Source: Pyxidicoccus trucidator
GTDB lineage: Bacteria > Myxococcota > Myxococcia > Myxococcales > Myxococcaceae
Assembly (NCBI RefSeq): GCF_010894435.1
Contig: NZ_JAAIXZ010000029.1
Coordinates: 62,001 to 126,000 of the forward strand
Length of the DNA: 64,000 nt
Direction of reading: 5' to 3'
Part shown: in pieces, positions 4,670-54,922 of the stretch
Position numbering within the stretch: position 1 is the stretch's first letter
Layout: the number at the start of each line of letters is the position of its first letter
Translations under genes and position numbers: made by a program
Notes under the pieces: generated by a model
What the model saw: only the letters and a program-made list of their open reading frames with translations
Told to the model about the DNA's origin: nothing
Databases searched by the model: none

Positions 4670-5155
4670 ATGGCCGCCACGAACCCGATGCCGACGACGT
4701 CCAACCCCTCCATGCCCACCGGAATGAACCCCATGATGGGCATGCCGATGATGGGGATGCCCATGAACCCGATGATGGGCATGGGCATGCCGATGAACCC
4801 GATGATGGGCATGGGCATGAACCCCATGGGCATGCCCATGAACCCGATGATGGGCATGGGCATGAATCCCATGGGCATGCCGATGAACCCGATGATGGGC
4901 ATGGGCATGAACCCCATGGGCATGGGCATGCCGATGATGATGCCCATGATGATGCGTCAGATGGCGCCGATGATGGTCCGGATGACGTGTGAGATGGGCA
5001 AGGACGGCATGATGTGCCGGATGATGCCGATGGACGGTCAGGACATGGCGATGATGAAGGAGTGCTGTGACGCCATGAACGCCATGATGGCCATGGGCGC
5101 GCCGGTGATGATGATGTGCAACGGCATGCCGATGATGATGTGCACGGCCCGCTGA
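4670..5155 (+). CDS. Methionine-rich (about 42 percent Met) repeat protein, putative copper binder
   Basis: 161 residues, of which about 67 are methionine. The ATG at 4670 is chosen because GGAG sits eight bases upstream and the upstream extension has ordinary composition. Residues about 20-85 are tandem copies of a unit like MNPMMGMGMNPMGMP. The C-terminal third adds six cysteines (TCEMGKDGMMCRM, KECCDAM, MMMCNGMPMMMC). Met-rich MxM and MxxM motifs with cysteines are typical of Cu(I) or Ag(I) binding, but no named family fits. No signal peptide is visible, so it appears cytosolic. It follows a metal exporter gene and converges on an XRE/cupin regulator ten bases away. Function is inference. 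Confidence 0.75.
   Translation: MAATNPMPTTSNPSMPTGMNPMMGMPMMGMPMNPMMGMGMPMNPMMGMGMNPMGMPMNPMMGMGMNPMGMPMNPMMGMGMNPMGMGMPMMMPMMMRQMAPMMVRMTCEMGKDGMMCRMMPMDGQDMAMMKECCDAMNAMMAMGAPVMMMCNGMPMMMCTAR
4764..4930 (+). repeat. In-frame tandem repeat encoding Met-Gly-Pro-Asn units
   Basis: Successive 45-base units begin ATGAACCCGATGATGGGC and continue with ATGGGCATGAACCCCATG-like segments, differing by single bases. Each unit encodes 15 residues, so gain or loss of units keeps the frame. The same DNA reads as a repetitive open frame on the opposite strand, which is a by-product of the CAT/ATG symmetry. Confidence 0.8.
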
Positions 5156-39742: not shown

Positions 39743-40370
39743 GGGTGCCTGTTCGGTTGTGCCGCGTGATTGCGACACGCCCGGCAAGAGCAGCCAGCGA
39801 GCCAACGACGTGCCCATGTGGTTACGCCTACTTGCGTGACACCTGCGAGGCTCGACCATCCGGAGGCTGGTCGCACCGTCTCGCGCGCTGGACGGCACGC
39901 AGTCACGCAGCTTCCACTTGAGTGGAAGCTGCAGCCGCCTGGAGTCACTTCCACTTGAGTGGAAGCAGCCGGAGCCCTTGAGTCACTTCCACTCGAGTGG
40001 AAGCAGCCGACACCCGCGGTGCTCACTTCCACTTGAGTGGAAGCAGCCGACACCCGCAGTGCTGACTTCCACTCGAGTGGAAGCAGCCGGCGCCCTCGAG
40101 TCACTTCCACTTGAGTGGAAGCAGGCTCTCACGGCCTGAGACGAACGAGGCGCTCCCCACCCGAAGAGAGACCCCTGACGGAAAGATGCCGGATACGCGT
40201 ATAGCCGAAGCATCGCCTGCTTCCTTGCCTGCCCTCGCGCGCCATCAACATTCGCCGAGAGAACTCCCACCCTGTCGCAGGTGCGAGAGTGACCCGTCAC
40301 CTCCACGAAGGACCCAGGGAAATTCGCCGGAGCCTTCGTTACAGTGGCCGCCATAGGAGCCGACGCTGTC
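39743..40370. other. 628-base divergent intergenic region holding the palindrome array
   Basis: No coding frame in it has support. The array at 39911-40121 occupies its centre. The right part (40122-40370) contains a lower-GC patch and would carry the promoter for the receiver-kinase-P450 operon; the left part would carry the promoter of the gene at 38519-39742. Short frames reading LPLEWK or HSSGS through the array are translations of the repeats. Confidence 0.7.
39911..40121. repeat. Array of six 18-bp palindromes with short similar spacers
   Basis: Copies lie at 39911, 39948, 39986, 40026, 40066 and 40104 (18 bases each). The sequence is CTTCCACTTGAGTGGAAG in four and CTTCCACTCGAGTGGAAG in two (third and fifth); the latter is a perfect palindrome. 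Spacers are 19, 20, 22, 22 and 20 bases and are related to one another: spacers two to five start CAGCCG and end near TCA or TGA, and the first also contains a CAGCCG. Periods are 37-40 bases. The arms TTCCAC/GTGGAA equal a parS-like half-site, but with a four-base TYGA centre. It looks like a clustered protein-binding array. Confidence 0.9.
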
Positions 40371-45637: not shown

Positions 45638-45811
45638 GTCCCCTCCCCTCCCCGGGCCGCCCCCGGCCGCGGCACTTCCCACAAGAGGCCGTGACGCGCC
45701 GTGCTATACGATTCCACCGAAGAGATTTCCCCGCCCACGTTCTCCCCGTGCGCAGGGGGCGCTCCACGCGTGGAACGACATGAAATGATGGGAGTAGGGG
45801 GCGGCGCGACG

Positions 45812-46360
45812 ATGGATGACGTGCAGCACCGCCAGTTCGAGGACTTCGCGCGTGCTCGGCGCCCGGGCCTGTTGAGGGTTGCCCGGAGACTGTGCGCGGG
45901 AGGAGGCACCGACCCGGAGGACCTCGTGCAGGAGACGCTGGAGCGCGCGTACCGCCACTTCGACCGGCTGGTGGGGGAGAACGCGGGGGCGGTGAGCGTG
46001 TGGCTGAGCACCACGCTGAGCAACCGCTTCCTGGACCACTGCCGCCGGCGGCGCACCGAGGTGCTCGGAGCGCCAGCGCTGCGCGTGGTGCAGGGGGATG
46101 CGACGGGCGAGCCGGTGCCCGTGGAACGGTGGGAGCAGGTGACGAGGGACGACTTCCTGCGAGCCATCGACCAGCTTCGTCCGACGCACCTGAGGGATGC
46201 GTACCGACTGCATGCCTCGGGGTTGCGCTACCGGGCCATTGCCCAGCAGCTTCGCGCGCCCGAGGGGACGGTGGGCCGGTGGCTCTCCGAAGCCCGTCAG
46301 GCCCTGAGGGAGCTGCTGACGCCGGGTGAGACGCCGCGCGAAGGCAGGGCCGGGTCATGA
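45812..46360 (+). CDS. ECF-type RNA polymerase sigma factor
   Basis: 182 residues. Region 2 is at about 10-75 (RPGLLRVARRLCAGGGTDPEDLVQETLERAY, then VWLSTTLSNRFLDHCRRRR). Region 4 is at about 125-175 (LRATDQL-like helix, LRYRAIAQQLRAPEGTVGRWLSEARQAL). The ATG at 45812 is preferred over one at 45785. Its stop overlaps the start of a membrane protein with an N-terminal anti-sigma zinc finger (46357-46360), so sigma and anti-sigma are translated together. Such pairs respond to envelope signals. No ECF-type autoregulated promoter was identified. Confidence 0.88.
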   Translation: MDDVQHRQFEDFARARRPGLLRVARRLCAGGGTDPEDLVQETLERAYRHFDRLVGENAGAVSVWLSTTLSNRFLDHCRRRRTEVLGAPALRVVQGDATGEPVPVERWEQVTRDDFLRAIDQLRPTHLRDAYRLHASGLRYRAIAQQLRAPEGTVGRWLSEARQALRELLTPGETPREGRAGS

Positions 46361-49287
46361 GCGAGCTCTGCGAGAGACTGGAGCGCTTCGTCGACGGGGA
46401 GCTGATGCCGGTGGACGCGGAGAACTTCCGCCACCACCTCACCCGCTGCGGCCCCTGCGAGACGCGGATGAAGGAGCTGCTCGCCATGGAGCTGCTCGCC
46501 GACGACGCGGTGAACGCCGCCAGCGACGAGCCCGCCCCCTCCATCGTGCACGGGCCCCCCGCCTGGCGCCGCAAGGCGTGGCTGATGGTGGTGCCCCTGG
46601 CGCTGGCAGCGGGCCTCGCCACGCTGGTGCTGGTGTCGCGCTCGGACCCACGGCCCGACGCCCACACGCTGTGGCTCGCCCAGGCGCCCACGCGCACGCT
46701 GGAGGCGCGGGTGACACTGCCTGGCGCGGACCTGCACAAGCCCTACGAGGTGATGCGCAGCCAGGGCACGACGGCGCAGCCGCTGCCCATGCGTGAAATG
46801 GCCCTGCTGGAGAAGGCGGGGGACGACCGCGGACTGGCCATGGCCTTCCTGCTGCGCGGGGACCTGGGGCAGGCCTCGGCCTACCTCGGCAGGCTGCGCG
46901 AGTCGCCGGACGTGGACACCGACCAGGCCGTGCTGGCCATGCAGCGGCAGGACTGGCAGACGGCGCTGACGCTGCTGGAGCGCGCGCTGAAGGAACGGCC
47001 CCAGCACCCGCAGGCCCTCTGGAACCGCGGGCTGGCGCTGCGGGCCCTCGGCCTGCCGCTCCAGGCGGCGGAGTCCTTCGAGCAGGTGGCGGCGCTGAAG
47101 GAGCCGGGCTGGAGCGAGGAGGCCGCCCAGAAGGTCCGCGAGCTGCGAAGCGCGGCGGAGGCGGAGCGCAAGGACTGGAAGGGCGCACGGCAGGACTGCC
47201 AGCGCATGGTGGAGGGAGGCGCGCCCCTCTCCGTGGCCCAGGCGGACGCCCTGCCCGGAATGGCGCGGGTCTGCCTGTACAACGCCCTGCGCACCGCGGC
47301 GACTCCCGAGCGCGTGGAGGCCCTGCGCCCCCTGGCGGCGAAGCTCGACGAGAAGCAGGGCAGCTCCCACCTGGAGGATGCCGTGCGCCGCACCGCCCGG
47401 CAGGACTTCTCCCTCCGCGCGCCCCTGGCCCGGGACTATGTCCGACTCTCTCGCGGCGAGCTGAAGGGCGCCGCGCAGGCGTCCTTCCTCGACAAGGTGC
47501 GCAAGGCCCGCCAGGAGGACATTCTCCTCGGAGCCATGACGTACGTCGACGCCCGGGAGCACCTGGACGAATACCGGACGCTGGCGCTGGCCACGAGGGA
47601 CCCGTGGTTCGCGCTGCTCGCGGAGGAGCGACAGGCGAAGGCGGAGGCGCTGCGGGACGAGCCCTACCACGCCCTGGAGCGACTCGAGGCCGCGGTGCAG
47701 TCGTGCAGGGCAGACGCGAAGCAGGGCTACCGCTGCATGCTGATGCAGCGGGAGCTGGGGCTGGTGAGTGTCCGCCTGAACCGTCCCGTCGAAGCCACCG
47801 CGCACTTCCTTCGGGCCATGGAGCTGGCCCGGAGCAGCCAGGAGTGGGGCACGCAGCGCAACCTCCTTCAGGACCTGGGGCAGGTGGCCCGGGCGCGGAA
47901 TGACCTCGTCCTGGCGCGCGCATATATGGAGGAGCTCGTCTCCCAGACGCCCGAGAGCTGCGCCGACTGGGAGTTGGCCCTCACCAACCTCGCCATCGCC
48001 CACCACCGTGCCCTGGACTTCGCGGGTGCCCGCCAGCATCTGGACCGGGCCTCGAGCTGCGGCCAGAAGCCCTCCATGGCCCGCATCTCCCTGCTCGCGG
48101 AGCTGGCCCGCACGACACAGCACCAGCCCGGGGACACCCAGCAACTGGTCGAAGCGCTGACCTCGCTGCGCGCCTCCGGAAGCCTGGACGCCGGAGACCA
48201 GGCCATGCTGAGCCACTTCGAGGGCCGCTACTTCATCGAACAGGACCGCCCGCGGGGACAGCAACTGCTGCGGCAGGTGCTGACCGAGACCGCGAAGCTG
48301 CAGGCCTCCGACGTGGGCGCGCGCAAGGCACGCGTCTACAGCTACACCTCCCTCCTCCTCGACGCGGGACGACACGAGGAGCTGGAGCAGGGGCTTGCCC
48401 TCTTCGCGGAGGAGCGCGCCCTGCCCGCGCCGGAGCGGTGCGTGCTGGGCGTCACGGTGGATGACGAGCGCACCTTCGTGGTGGCTCGGGACGCCGAGGG
48501 GCGCCTGACAGGCCACTATGACGCGGGACGGAAGTCTCCCCTCGAAGGTGTCGAAGGACTGGTGCCCTCGAAAATCGTGGAGGCGCTGCGCGCTTGTCCC
48601 AGTGTGCATGTCCTGGCCCGTCCCCCCGTCCAGGGCCGCGCGGGCCTGCTGCCTCCGGAGCTGGCGTGGTCCTACCGCGTCGGACCTCCGTCGGTACCCC
48701 GGGCGCCGAAACAGGAGCGCCGGCTGGTCGTCACCGACGTACTGGCTCCCGCCTCACTGCGCCTCCCCGCGCTGCGGGCGTGGAGCACCACCGGTCCGGA
48801 TGAGGCCTTCACCGTCCTGCGCGGCGCGGCGGCCACGCCCGTCCGCGTGCTGGAGGCCATGCGGGATGCGACGGAGGTGCAGGTCCATGCACATGGAATC
48901 ATCGACCCCGGCGTGGCGGATGCGTCCGTGCTCGTGCTTTCGCCCACGAGCGACACGGGGCGCTTCGCGCTGACCACCAGGGACCTGCGCGGACAGCGGC
49001 TGCGCGGGCGGCCCGTCGTGGTGCTCGCCGCCTGCTACGCCGCGCATACCAGCGCCTATATCCACGAGAATCTCGGGCTGCCGCTCGCCTTCATCGAGTC
49101 AGGTGCCCGGGCCGTCCTGGCGGCAACCCAGGAGATTCCCGATGCCGAGGCCTCGGCCTTCTTCGAACTGGTGCTGGCACGCATCCGGTCCGGAGCGCCC
49201 GCCGCCGAGGCACTCCGGGACGAACGGCAGGACTGGCTGCGGCGCCACGGAAGCACGTGGGTGCGGCAGGTGCTGCTCTTCGAGTAG
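46357..49287 (+). CDS. Membrane fusion of anti-sigma zinc finger, TPR region and CHAT protease-like domain
   Basis: 976 residues. The N-terminal zf-HC2 has Cys5, His27, Cys31 and Cys34 (HLTRCGPC). One membrane helix is at 74-94. Helical TPR-like repeats run from about 140 to 690 (LERALKERPQHPQALWNRGL). A C-terminal CHAT (caspase-like) domain follows, with the dyad His846 in QVHAHG and Cys893 in LAACYA. So a zinc-finger anti-sigma that would hold the sigma factor is joined in one chain to a protease-like sensor predicted outside the inner membrane. The coupled sigma gene and downstream lipoprotein gene form its operon. TPR-CHAT proteins are known peptidases in some immunity systems; here cleavage targets are unknown. 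Confidence 0.85.
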   Translation: MSELCERLERFVDGELMPVDAENFRHHLTRCGPCETRMKELLAMELLADDAVNAASDEPAPSIVHGPPAWRRKAWLMVVPLALAAGLATLVLVSRSDPRPDAHTLWLAQAPTRTLEARVTLPGADLHKPYEVMRSQGTTAQPLPMREMALLEKAGDDRGLAMAFLLRGDLGQASAYLGRLRESPDVDTDQAVLAMQRQDWQTALTLLERALKERPQHPQALWNRGLALRALGLPLQAAESFEQVAALKEPGWSEEAAQKVRELRSAAEAERKDWKGARQDCQRMVEGGAPLSVAQADALPGMARVCLYNALRTAATPERVEALRPLAAKLDEKQGSSHLEDAVRRTARQDFSLRAPLARDYVRLSRGELKGAAQASFLDKVRKARQEDILLGAMTYVDAREHLDEYRTLALATRDPWFALLAEERQAKAEALRDEPYHALERLEAAVQSCRADAKQGYRCMLMQRELGLVSVRLNRPVEATAHFLRAMELARSSQEWGTQRNLLQDLGQVARARNDLVLARAYMEELVSQTPESCADWELALTNLAIAHHRALDFAGARQHLDRASSCGQKPSMARISLLAELARTTQHQPGDTQQLVEALTSLRASGSLDAGDQAMLSHFEGRYFIEQDRPRGQQLLRQVLTETAKLQASDVGARKARVYSYTSLLLDAGRHEELEQGLALFAEERALPAPERCVLGVTVDDERTFVVARDAEGRLTGHYDAGRKSPLEGVEGLVPSKIVEALRACPSVHVLARPPVQGRAGLLPPELAWSYRVGPPSVPRAPKQERRLVVTDVLAPASLRLPALRAWSTTGPDEAFTVLRGAAATPVRVLEAMRDATEVQVHAHGIIDPGVADASVLVLSPTSDTGRFALTTRDLRGQRLRGRPVVVLAACYAAHTSAYIHENLGLPLAFIESGARAVLAATQEIPDAEASAFFELVLARIRSGAPAAEALRDERQDWLRRHGSTWVRQVLLFE

Positions 49288-49313
49288 TCCCACCCACAGC
49301 CAGAGTCATCTCC

Positions 49314-49832
49314 ATGAAGAGAATCCTCCTGCCCTTGTCGTGTCTCGTCGCACTGTCCGGTTGCTGGCGCCACACCCGTGAGCCGGACTGGAATCCCTCG
49401 CGAGACATTCCCGCCGGGACGCTCGTCCGTGTCGTCCTGCAGGACGTGAACGAGCCCGGCCGCATCTCCGCCTTCACGGTGGACCCTCGCGCGGGGCGCG
49501 TCATCGACCGTCAGGATGGGAAGCGGGTCCAGCGGCAGGAGGCCGGCTCCGTGACGGCGGCCCAGGACGCCCCGTCCAAGCAGACGCTGAACACGGCCGT
49601 CCAGGTTCCATGCCCGGAAGTGAGGCCGGACGCGCCCGAGTGCCTCGTGTACGCGTCCGACCCGAAGCATGAGACCACCGGCGACCCCAACCCCGCCAAG
49701 GAAAACGACTACGCGGCCCGCCTCGCGCTGACCGAGAAGTTCGTCGTGCAGGTCTCCTTGAACCTCCTCGAGGCAGCGCACGTCACCGGCGTCAACGTGG
49801 GCGTGCAGGGCCTCAAGCAGGCGCCCCGGTAG
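49314..49832 (+). CDS. Lipoprotein in the sigma/CHAT operon
   Basis: 172 residues with lipobox in SCLVALSGCWRH (Cys18). The mature chain (LVRVVLQDVNEPGRISAF, DPRAGRVIDRQDGKRV, KFVVQVSLNLLEAAHVTGVNVGVQGL) alternates strands and helices with no named family. It starts 26 bases after the CHAT gene, so it is the third gene of that operon. A role as a lipid-anchored sensor or substrate of the CHAT protein is possible but inferred only from gene order. It converges on the gene ending at 49925. Confidence 0.75.
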   Translation: MKRILLPLSCLVALSGCWRHTREPDWNPSRDIPAGTLVRVVLQDVNEPGRISAFTVDPRAGRVIDRQDGKRVQRQEAGSVTAAQDAPSKQTLNTAVQVPCPEVRPDAPECLVYASDPKHETTGDPNPAKENDYAARLALTEKFVVQVSLNLLEAAHVTGVNVGVQGLKQAPR

Positions 49833-51400: not shown

Positions 51401-54400
51401 CTACCCCTTCGCGCCGCCGGGCGCGGCGGGGACGAGCCCCGCGAGCGTCTCCACATAGGTGGCGGCCACGCGAAGGAAGCGGGCTCCACGGACGCCGGTG
51501 AGGTACTGCCGCTTCATGGCCCGGGTGGAGCCCACGTAGAACATGGCGCGGCGGATGCGCTCGATTTCCCGGGCGGAGCGCTCGCGGGCGCCCGCCATCC
51601 AGTTCTCCACGGAGTCCAGCGCGTCCAGCCCCGCGAAGAAGACGATGGGGCACTCGTGGCCCTTGCAGGAGAAGACGGTGGTGGCGCGCACGTGGTCCAC
51701 GCCGCTGACGCGGAAGTCCGTCACGTCCCGCCCCCCCTTGCCACCATAGGCCTCCGCGGGCACGCCGGCGCGGGTGAGGGCCTCGGTGTACTGGGAGGGC
51801 ATGACGGGGGCCACCACCAGGATGTCTCCGGGGTGGACGCCCTCCTCCCGGATGAGCCGGGCCACCTCCTTCGCCACCTGGCGCGCCTCGCTGGCGCTGG
51901 AGGCGAAGCCTCGCACCTGGGGTAGCACGCCACCGCGCTCGGTGGACTGGACGCGGAAGAGGCCCTCCAGCGTCTCCTCCGGCAGCCAGAGGAGCCCCTC
52001 CCGGGCCAGCTCCCCCACCTTCATGTACTCGCGCATGCCCGGCTCGCCCGCCTGGTGCTGGCGCAGCGGGTCCAGCACGACATTGAAGGCCACGTCGAGG
52101 ATGTCGCGGGTGGCGCGGAACGTCTCCTTGAGCACGCGAGTGCGGCCGCGGAAGGACAGCCCCTCGGGGAGCTGCTCCTTGAGCGCGTCGATGGGCACCT
52201 GGCCGTAGACGTTCTGCGAGTCGTCCATGAAGAGCTGGAAGCAGCGCACCTGCCGGCCGTCCGGCAGCGCGTAGGGGCGCACCAGGCCATGGAGGGAGGA
52301 CAGCGCCTTCGCGTCCATGTCCTGCGCCTCGTCCACGAAGACGGCGTCGAAGCTGCCGGGCTCCGGACGGCGCAGCGCCCCCACGTGCCGCACCGAGACG
52401 CGGGCGCGCAGCTCCCGCACCCGCTCGCGGCCCGCGCGCTGCACCAGCGCCTCCGTGAGCAGCTTGTCCACCAGCGGCGCCAGGGCCCGGTTGTAGAAGG
52501 AGATGAGCACCTGCGCCTCGCCGTGCTCCAGCAGGTAGCGCGCCACCCAGTGCGCCAGCACGTACGTCTTGCCGCTGCCCGCCACGCCGCGCACCAGGTG
52601 GTGCCCGTCATCGAAGCGCCGCTCGAAGAGGGACACCTGCTCGTGCGTGAAGAGGGGCCGCGCCGGACGCGCGCCCTCGATTTCGCCGCCCAGGCTGGCC
52701 GGCGCGGAGGGAGGCGGCGGCGGGGGTGGCGGCTGTTTCTGCGGAAGGGGCAGTGGCTCCAGGCGCAGCGGCTCGCTGGAGAGGACCCGCAGGCGGGGCA
52801 GCAACGCGAGGAAGCGCTGGGGGATGGTGGCGGCCCGGGCCTCGTCGCGCGAGGCCAGCACCAGCAGGTAGTCCCGCGCGCGGCTGGCGGCCACGTTGAG
52901 CATGGGCACCAGCGTGTGCGGCGGAAAGGGCCGCCCTCCGGCCACCGTGTCCACCAGCACCACGTCGTATTGGGTGCCCTGCTGGCGGTGGATGGTGGAC
53001 GCGCTGAAGACGTCCCCGCGCAGGCCGGCCGAGTTGCCCAACCGGCGCAGCAGGGCTGCCTGGGCGCGGTAGGGCGTGACACACAGGACGCTGAGACCCG
53101 AGCGCACCGCCTCTCGCGCCAGCGACACGGCGAGACTCGCGGACAGCTCGCGCTGGTAGCCGGAGCCTGTCTCCCCACGCCCATGGGTGAGGCGGCGGGG
53201 GTCTCTCGTCAGGCTGTCCAGCACCACCCAGCCGGCGCGCGTGGCGGGGAAGGCGGCCACGGGCGCCGGCTTCTCCGCGCGGGCGCGGACGATGTCGCCG
53301 TCCTGCAGCGCGCCGCCGTAGCAGAAGTGGCTCACCACCCGGGCGATGTCCGGGTGCATGCGGTGCTGGGTGCGCAGCAGCAGCACGTCCGGCCGCGCCG
53401 CATCCTTCACCGCGTCCTCCAGGTGCGACAGGCCGCTGGCGCGCAGCCACTTCTGCGTGTCCTTGCCGGCGCCCTCGGCGGCACGGCTCACCGGGCCAAT
53501 CTGCTTCGGGTCTCCGGCGAGCGTCACCCGCTCCGCCAGCGGCGCCAGCACCGCGGTGGCGGCGCGTGTCACCATGCCGGCCTCGTCCACCACCAGCCTC
53601 GAGAAGGTCCGCTTTCCCTCCAGCTCCGACACCAGGCGCAGGGCACGGTGCACGGTGAGCACCATCAGCGGGCAGTCGCCCTTCTCCGCCTCCTTCAGCG
53701 TGGGGTCCTTCACCTTGCCGCGCAGGCCGCGCAGCTCCGCCTGGAGCTTCGCCAGCTCGTGCGCGGGCCCCCCTCGCACGCGCTGGAGCATCAGCTCCCG
53801 CTCGCGGTCTTCGATGCTCGAGCGGAGCTTTCCGCCCTTCTGGCTGTCCTCGACGATGACGGTGGGCAGCTTCGCCAGCGCCTCGCTGGCGCCGGTGCCG
53901 CCCCGGAAGATGCTGCGCAGGGGGCGCAGGGGAATCGGCTCGCGCTCCAGCAGCGCGCTGATGCGCAGCACCAATTCGTCCGCGGCGCGGTTGGTGGGCG
54001 CCACCGCGAGGATGCGCTCGCCGGGGAACGCACGGAGGGAGCGGGCGATGAGGTCCGCGACGGCCGTCGTCTTGCCCGTGCCCGGCGGGCCCCAGATGCA
54101 GCCCCAGGGCTGACTCCACAGCCGGTCCGCTGGCAGCCGTTCCGCGTCCCGGGCCGACAGCTCGGGCGGAGTCTCCTCACCGCACGCGCGGCGCAGCGCC
54201 TGGGTGAGCGCGGGCTGCCGCTCCTCATATGCCGAGGCCGCCGCGCACAGCGCCTCCGCGAAGTCATAGGGCCGGTAGCACCAGCGCTCGGCGGAGAGGG
54301 CGCTCCGGTCCACGTCGTCGCCATGCCCGGGGGACGCGAAGACACGGCCCGACTCGAAGTCGAGGTGGACGACGTCGCCCCCGAAGACGCACTCCTCGCC

Positions 54401-54922
54401 ATGGAAGCCGAGCAGCGAGCCACCCGACCAGTCCGGGTCCGCCGCTGGCCGGGGGATGAGCGAGAGGACACCGGGCGACTGGAGGCTCACCTCGCGCACG
54501 TCCTGCAGCCGCTGCGCGCGGTACTGGCTGCGCTCGGCCATGAGCGCCTCGCGCAGGTCTTCCGGAAGGTACGCAGGGGGGGTCCAGACCTCACGGCGCT
54601 TTCCCGCCGCCACCGCGGCCTGCATGGCCTCACGCTCGGCCTGGCTGGCCTCCGCCGGCGCGGCGAGGTCCACGGCGGGCACGCCCTCGGAATCCACGGC
54701 CGCGGGCCCCGGCAGGCCAGGGCCCCGGGACACCTCGGGCCGTCCCCGCGTGGCGAGCGCATTGCGCGGACGCGATGGCGGCACCGGAGGGACGGCGCCG
54801 TGCCCGGGTGGCGCATCGTCGTATTCGATGCGGAGCTCGCGCGAGCCGCTCCCCGCCTCAGAGGAACTCCCGCCCTGCCCCACGGCCTCGTGGCCCCAAG
54901 CCCCGTCCGTCCCACGCATCAT
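51401..54922 (-). CDS. Double superfamily 1 helicase (UPF1-like plus UvrD-like) fusion
   Basis: 1173 residues. A disordered N-terminal 80 residues lead to a UPF1/DNA2-like helicase: Walker A GPPGTGKTT near 276, Walker B VVDEAGM near 442, GDPKQIGPVS, and STIHRQQGTQYDVVLVD with NVAASRARDYLLVLASR near 670. A Pro-rich linker (about 725-745) joins a second, UvrD-like helicase: GVAGSGKTYV near 778, FVDEAQDMDA near 860, VFSCKGHECPIVFFAGLD near 1081 and FYVGSTRAM. Both motor sets look complete. Single-gene unit. Domains of each type usually occur in separate proteins. Likely a nucleic-acid translocase; role unknown. Confidence 0.85.
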   Translation of the reverse strand: MMRGTDGAWGHEAVGQGGSSSEAGSGSRELRIEYDDAPPGHGAVPPVPPSRPRNALATRGRPEVSRGPGLPGPAAVDSEGVPAVDLAAPAEASQAEREAMQAAVAAGKRREVWTPPAYLPEDLREALMAERSQYRAQRLQDVREVSLQSPGVLSLIPRPAADPDWSGGSLLGFHGEECVFGGDVVHLDFESGRVFASPGHGDDVDRSALSAERWCYRPYDFAEALCAAASAYEERQPALTQALRRACGEETPPELSARDAERLPADRLWSQPWGCIWGPPGTGKTTAVADLIARSLRAFPGERILAVAPTNRAADELVLRISALLEREPIPLRPLRSIFRGGTGASEALAKLPTVIVEDSQKGGKLRSSIEDRERELMLQRVRGGPAHELAKLQAELRGLRGKVKDPTLKEAEKGDCPLMVLTVHRALRLVSELEGKRTFSRLVVDEAGMVTRAATAVLAPLAERVTLAGDPKQIGPVSRAAEGAGKDTQKWLRASGLSHLEDAVKDAARPDVLLLRTQHRMHPDIARVVSHFCYGGALQDGDIVRARAEKPAPVAAFPATRAGWVVLDSLTRDPRRLTHGRGETGSGYQRELSASLAVSLAREAVRSGLSVLCVTPYRAQAALLRRLGNSAGLRGDVFSASTIHRQQGTQYDVVLVDTVAGGRPFPPHTLVPMLNVAASRARDYLLVLASRDEARAATIPQRFLALLPRLRVLSSEPLRLEPLPLPQKQPPPPPPPPSAPASLGGEIEGARPARPLFTHEQVSLFERRFDDGHHLVRGVAGSGKTYVLAHWVARYLLEHGEAQVLISFYNRALAPLVDKLLTEALVQRAGRERVRELRARVSVRHVGALRRPEPGSFDAVFVDEAQDMDAKALSSLHGLVRPYALPDGRQVRCFQLFMDDSQNVYGQVPIDALKEQLPEGLSFRGRTRVLKETFRATRDILDVAFNVVLDPLRQHQAGEPGMREYMKVGELAREGLLWLPEETLEGLFRVQSTERGGVLPQVRGFASSASEARQVAKEVARLIREEGVHPGDILVVAPVMPSQYTEALTRAGVPAEAYGGKGGRDVTDFRVSGVDHVRATTVFSCKGHECPIVFFAGLDALDSVENWMAGARERSAREIERIRRAMFYVGSTRAMKRQYLTGVRGARFLRVAATYVETLAGLVPAAPGGAKG

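Follow-up and report, generated by a model that had tools for sequence, protein, structure and literature searches.

The stretch of DNA analysed here, referred to as the window, comprises 64,000 nucleotides of Pyxidicoccus trucidator (assembly GCF_010894435.1, contig NZ_JAAIXZ010000029.1, positions 62,001 to 126,000, forward strand) and contains, on its + strand, an operon coding for an extracytoplasmic function (ECF) sigma factor, a 976-residue predicted transmembrane anti-sigma factor related to Myxococcus xanthus DdvA, and a small lipoprotein. The sigma protein (45770..46360) contains regions 2 and 4 and no region 3, as ECF sigma factors do: Sigma70_r2 (E 3e-13) and Sigma70_r4_2 (E 3.7e-7) both scored above the Pfam cut-offs, and the top NCBIfam model was sigma70-ECF (E 6e-17). 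The stop codon of the sigma gene overlaps the start codon of the anti-sigma gene as ATGA, and an identical 4-base overlap was found in all orthologs examined. An earlier note on this DNA had recognized the ECF sigma gene and the overlap, both of which stand, but had placed the start of the gene at ATG 45812. An in-frame GTG at 45770 and the Shine-Dalgarno sequence AGGGGG preceding it (45754-45759) are conserved and fit the ortholog alignment better, so that GTG 45770 is probably the true start and ATG 45812 lies too late.

Between the end of the upstream gene (45637) and the sigma gene, an ECF-type promoter, CCGAAGGGA-N12-CGTTC, is kept across 28 aligned homologs (consensus CCGAAGRGA-N12-CGTTC; 45717..45742, + strand). 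The pattern CCGAAGRGA-N11..13-CGTT has a single match in the 12.67-Mb genome, the one ahead of the sigma gene, and the reversed control pattern has two. Since this promoter is ECF-like, conserved and the sole match in the genome, the sigma factor likely transcribes its own operon from it. Allowing one mismatch gave 14 matches, against four for the reversed control; several of them are copies of one repeated sequence, they look like chance matches, and no second convincing target was found in the genome scan.

The second gene (46357..49287, as all its features on the + strand) codes for a protein with the order zf-HC2, transmembrane helix, TPR and CHAT, as indicated by Pfam, homology with DdvA, fold matching and an AlphaFold2 (AF2) model. 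The zinc-finger domain (residues 1-62, 46357..46542; ligands Cys5, His27, Cys31 and Cys34) scored slightly below the Pfam cut-off (E 2e-4, 21.7 bits against 22.2); nevertheless, we consider it secure, because the four ligands are conserved and a profile built from the family matches two anti-sigma domains of known structure, those of DdvA (8rlz, E 5e-16) and RsiW (5wuq, E 5e-4). A single membrane helix follows (residues 74-94, 46576..46638), hydrophobicity peaking in the 19-residue window that begins at 76. As basic residues flank the helix on its N-terminal side, we expect the zinc finger on the cytoplasmic side and the TPR-CHAT part outside the inner membrane. A conserved juxtamembrane segment (residues 113-139, 46693..46773; Arg113, Arg118 and Arg134), which is a candidate cleavage segment, leads to a TPR superhelix (residues 145-686, 46789..48414; TPR_2, TPR_16 and TPR_12 above cut-off) and to a caspase/separase-like CHAT domain (residues 695-976, 48439..49284). 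The latter matches the CHAT profile (PF12770) with E 5.6e-17 and 62.6 bits, against a cut-off of 24, and carries the His846/Cys893 dyad, so that profile and dyad both place it among the CHAT peptidases. Cys450, Cys460, Cys695 and Cys747 are invariant in all CHAT-containing homologs, which would fit a disulfide-bearing periplasmic domain.

The AF2 model, built with 48 relatives, reached a predicted local distance difference test score (pLDDT) of 85.9, with values below 50 over residues 51-102 and a low-confidence loop at residues 134-139; in it the CHAT fold is predicted and the dyad is present. The earlier note had described this protein correctly in its length, zinc ligands, membrane helix, helical repeats and dyad, and had proposed that a single chain spans the membrane as an anti-sigma factor and carries TPR-CHAT outside it, which our predictions support. 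A frame error joining two separate genes can be ruled out, since 46357-49287 is one open frame and full-length orthologs with 60-80% identity share it.

The architecture that stood out in the earlier note is not a new design, since DdvA shares it and has a solved structure. A phmmer search against PDB sequences returned a full-length match (residues 3-976, E 4e-137) to 8rot/8rw5, and fold comparison identified these entries as DdvA of Myxococcus xanthus, a dimeric transmembrane anti-sigma factor solved by cryo-EM. The model of residues 102-976 superposes on 8rot_A with Z 47.0 (root mean square deviation 4.8, 861 aligned residues, 36% identity). The fold, the domain order over the full length and the positions of His and Cys are shared with DdvA, as is the presence of a cognate ECF sigma factor (DdvS-DdvA; PDB 8rot, 8rw5, 8rlz), so that the window protein joins an established type. 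We are highly confident that it is the cognate transmembrane anti-sigma factor of the adjacent sigma factor.

DdvS becomes active upon DdvA inactivation, the signal being unknown in 2015 (PMC4374960). In M. xanthus, DdvS has under its control a defence island that includes two CBASS (cyclic oligonucleotide-based antiphage signalling) systems and one type III-B CRISPR (clustered regularly interspaced short palindromic repeats) system (PMC12288465); the primary work is that of Bernal-Bernal et al. (2018, 2024; cited in PMC12288465). The equal architecture might suggest that the pair in the window is the local DdvS/DdvA and controls such an island, but this is very improbable. DdvA shares 63% identity with a protein of Archangium lansinium and 57% with one of Corallococcus exercitus, but only 36% with the window protein; its nearer orthologs in the tree are L134 and L137, and the window protein falls into a separate, well-supported clade. 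An identity of 36%, against 57-64% for two clear orthologs, and the different clade led us to reject the identification of the pair with DdvS/DdvA itself: sequence comparison makes the window protein a paralog of DdvA, and neither identity nor the tree revealed a DdvA ortholog in this genome. It differs from DdvA also in its juxtamembrane motif (VMRS, VMMG in DdvA), and its operon differs in having a lipoprotein as third gene, a promoter of its own and no sign of a CBASS-CRISPR island. No CRISPR-like array was found among the tandem repeats of the 64-kb window, the sole promoter match in the genome is the operon's own, and neither the window nor the promoter scan gave evidence of a CRISPR or CBASS link.

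The family is large among myxobacteria: homologs of the 976-residue protein were matched in 49 of 146 genomes sampled across the phylum (7 of 78 genera, with one named match in Kofleriaceae), about ten homologous loci being present in the genome of P. trucidator; pairwise identities among the CHAT-containing homologs lie mostly near 40-47%. Three architectures were distinguished. In the first, the fused protein of the window type lies directly 3' of a sigma gene (68/68), which answers the search for zinc finger plus CHAT architectures that the earlier note had suggested. In the second, a transmembrane TPR-CHAT protein has no zinc finger, and a sigma gene is adjacent in none of the 31 loci with enough upstream sequence, a number that includes split CHAT chains of the third architecture; the zinc-finger-less L109, L114, L121 and L136 run into contig ends, and their lack of a zinc finger was not taken as a genuine loss. 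In the third, split architecture, a zinc-finger-less CHAT gene is followed by an opposite-strand cupin/JmjC-like gene and then by a sigma gene and the gene of a trap chain, a zinc finger-transmembrane-TPR protein of 277-478 residues without CHAT (L065:2306-8498; also L102, L104, L110-L113, L115, L120, L123, L125, L127, L133, L138, L139 and L141). All 17 split CHAT chains fall into a single clade, which has full support. Sigma and zinc-finger distances are correlated (r 0.92 over 85 pairs, partly from the common ancestry of the loci), and zinc finger and adjacent sigma gene appear to be inherited together.

Some observations on the sampled loci may be added. In L056 and L057, a zinc-finger-less CHAT gene lies, apparently divergently, beside a sigma/CHAT-family pair, perhaps another two-chain arrangement. 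Two sequences from BNCN01 records titled Comamonas sp. KCTC 72670 (L106 and L138, the latter included in the tree) group closely with Myxococcus sequences, and this assembly is probably mislabelled or contaminated. CHAT matches in the P. trucidator genome total 27, and at least 12 TPR-CHAT proteins are of another, Pfam-typical kind (L001-L012, E <1e-65, frames of 959-1216 residues).

Whether the CHAT domain is a protease bears directly on how the sigma factor may be released. His846 and Cys893 are invariant in 108/108 CHAT-containing homologs, including the clades without zinc finger and sigma, and Asp929, conserved in 104/108, is by its position a candidate S1-pocket residue. After DdvA, the next fold matches are the TPR-CHAT protein of Craspase (Z ~16-21), separase (~14-18) and gingipain (~16), all active proteases. 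Protease activity is proven for Craspase TPR-CHAT, which cuts a sigma-binding protein (PMC10028731, PMC9729208); the earlier note had stated this function of the type III-E CRISPR peptidase correctly, and the likeness to Csx29 that it drew is borne out by the fold match. The invariant dyad and the fold matches speak against the CHAT part being a non-catalytic fold that binds a ligand or protein, in which the dyad would serve the fold or the ligand and release would depend first on an ordinary DegS-type site-1 protease and next on an M50 protease. That explanation appears possible but doubtful; it accords with the Pfam CHAT model matching over its second half only (residues 804-963), with the separate site-1 proteases that serve many anti-sigma factors, and with the M50-family (site-2 type) proteases encoded in the genome. 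CHAT-dependent cleavage as the trigger of sigma release, the mechanism put forward in the earlier note and reportedly suggested for DdvA before, is plausible but, in our judgement, a tentative proposal that comes close to being evenly balanced.

The juxtamembrane segment offers a candidate cut site. Window residues 113-135, R..LEAR.....AD..RPY..MRS, lie immediately outside the membrane and are highly conserved, Arg118 being invariant across all architecture classes. Arg113 is found in 68/68 fused proteins, 19/19 zinc-finger-less proteins and 19/19 trap chains, and is replaced by Ala or Ser in 17/17 split CHAT chains. Similarly, Arg134 is present in 61/68 fused proteins (the others having Met), 18/19 zinc-finger-less proteins and 18/19 trap chains, and is Gly in 17/17 split CHAT chains. 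Position 130 is Tyr or Phe in 19/19 trap chains, and the split CHAT chain has a conserved new Cys (GGC) at the place where the other classes have MR(S/G). As the trap keeps the arginines that the split CHAT chain has lost, the simplest reading suggests a cleavage in trans near Arg134 or Arg113 in the split clade; the invariant dyad and the existence of this clade likewise favour a trans-acting cleavage step.

Several points weigh against this reading. The arginines were lost from the split CHAT chain only once in evolution. Stand-alone zinc-finger-less CHAT clades without a sigma gene retain Arg113 and mostly Arg134, and the DdvA-like clade carries Met at 134, for which reason the conservation of the segment may be structural. 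That the CHAT domain is catalytic in this family is plausible by comparison with other proteins. In DdvA itself, the His-Cys site is reportedly incomplete, with three helices missing, and is said to face the dimer interface, although the 2024 paper reportedly also proposes that autoproteolysis occurs in trans and that an intramembrane cleavage comes next. Nor should arginine specificity be assumed by analogy: in D. ishimotonii, the cut that Csx29 makes in Csx30 follows residue 428 (PMC10028731), in another species cleavage occurs after L407, and a Craspase TPR-CHAT has Lys in place of the Arg-reading Asp of separase (PMC9729208).

The third gene (49314..49832, + strand, ATG 49314), noticed in the earlier note as a downstream lipoprotein gene, has the lipobox LSGC with Cys17 and keeps its position in the orthologs. 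The lipoprotein is single-copy in the genome and its structure model is poor (pLDDT 58). Its orthologs are 22-44% identical, against 60-80% for the anti-sigma factor, for which reason we regard it as a fast-evolving partner. Many paralog operons carry instead a protein of 40-110 residues with a DPPP..G motif, present behind 23/78 CHAT genes and 0/376 controls (L093:8091-8279, directly behind a DdvA-type gene; also 3' of the CHAT genes in L059, L061, L081, L088, L094, L099, L105, L107, L108 and L143). The motif is at times doubled and at times at the extreme C-terminus (e.g., RPDVRDPPPTGPPG); the one DPPP protein tested had no Pfam match. Lipoproteins beside one zinc-finger-less clade carry a similar motif, DPPPDPKDPGN. 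Lipoproteins and DPPP proteins are candidates for a substrate, an inhibitor or a signal.

These neighbours lend some weight to the proposal that the CHAT domain is active on another envelope protein, such as the lipoprotein or the DPPP proteins, sigma release being a read-out of substrate binding. The enrichment of DPPP proteins behind CHAT genes, the fast divergence of the lipoproteins, which the anti-sigma factor does not share, and the stand-alone TPR-CHAT clades that keep the dyad without zinc finger or sigma, some of them adjoining lipoproteins, agree with it. Yet we consider it rather unlikely, since signal peptides are not evident in the DPPP proteins, whereas a periplasmic location is predicted for the CHAT part, and the split clade indicates the trap chain as the partner.

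We propose that the zinc-finger domain would tether the ECF sigma factor to the inner membrane, and that the periplasmic TPR-CHAT part, probably dimeric by analogy with DdvA, would sense a signal, possibly relayed by the partner lipoprotein. The CHAT domain may then cut the juxtamembrane segment of the partner subunit in trans, with Arg134 and Arg113 as candidates, after which intramembrane and then cytoplasmic proteolysis would liberate the sigma factor to transcribe its own operon from 45717-45742; the M50-family proteases of the genome agree with this scheme too. We regard it as reasonably likely that the operon works in this way, as an envelope-signalling module of the DdvS/DdvA type that regulates itself. 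The wider proposal, of a family of self-contained membrane sigma switches in which CHAT cuts the partner at Arg134/Arg113, one lineage has divided trap and protease between two chains of which only the trap keeps the cut site, and lipoproteins or DPPP proteins are signals or substrates, is speculative and, taken as a whole, unlikely.

The module shares features with several other systems. Craspase (type III-E CRISPR: Csx29, Csx30 and CASP-sigma) has the TPR-CHAT fold and an inhibitor-held ECF sigma factor, but is RNA-guided, has no membrane anchor and keeps inhibitor and protease as separate proteins, Csx30 not being described as a zf-HC2 protein; the set of Cas7-11/gRAMP, Csx30 and CRISPR array that marks a type III-E Craspase does not occur at the locus. 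Eukaryotic separase likewise has a helical-repeat superhelix followed by a caspase-fold protease (Z ~17.5 for the protease part alone, 257-267 residues, 3.5-3.9 Å), but with 8-14% identity and without membrane anchor or anti-sigma domain. Anti-sigma factors of the RseA/RsiW type have the cytoplasmic zinc finger, to which the RsiW profile match corresponds, one membrane helix and a periplasmic part, but are released via separate site-1 proteases and have no TPR-CHAT part. CalpL-CalpT-CalpS follows the same logic of protease, anti-sigma factor and ECF sigma factor, but with a Lon-SAVED protease of a type III CRISPR system, a cyclic nucleotide signal and separate chains (PMC11417357).

Beyond the single structure of DdvA, the family comparison adds the strict dyad, the pairing of zinc finger and sigma gene, the natural split of trap and protease, the two trap-linked arginines, the sigma promoter and the DPPP neighbours. 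With dyad, split and arginines identified, CHAT-dependent release and the cut site can be tested by a few point mutants. Since many myxobacteria carry several such switches per genome, the DdvA type could be a major envelope-signalling route in these bacteria.

The operon has as neighbours the genes of a tRNA-editing-type protein, a helicase and a radical SAM protein, and Rfam gave no matches at the gathering threshold. Elsewhere in the window, 51401-54922 (- strand) codes for a 1173-residue protein with two superfamily-1 helicase-like halves, AAA_11/AAA_12 and then UvrD-like, which matches MkoA in PADLOC (E 8e-44). At 39911-40124, a palindromic unit, CTTCCACTTGAGTGGAAG, and a spacer are repeated in tandem (period ~40, 5.6 copies), and at 4724-4949 units of the type ATGGGCATG are tandemly repeated within an open reading frame.

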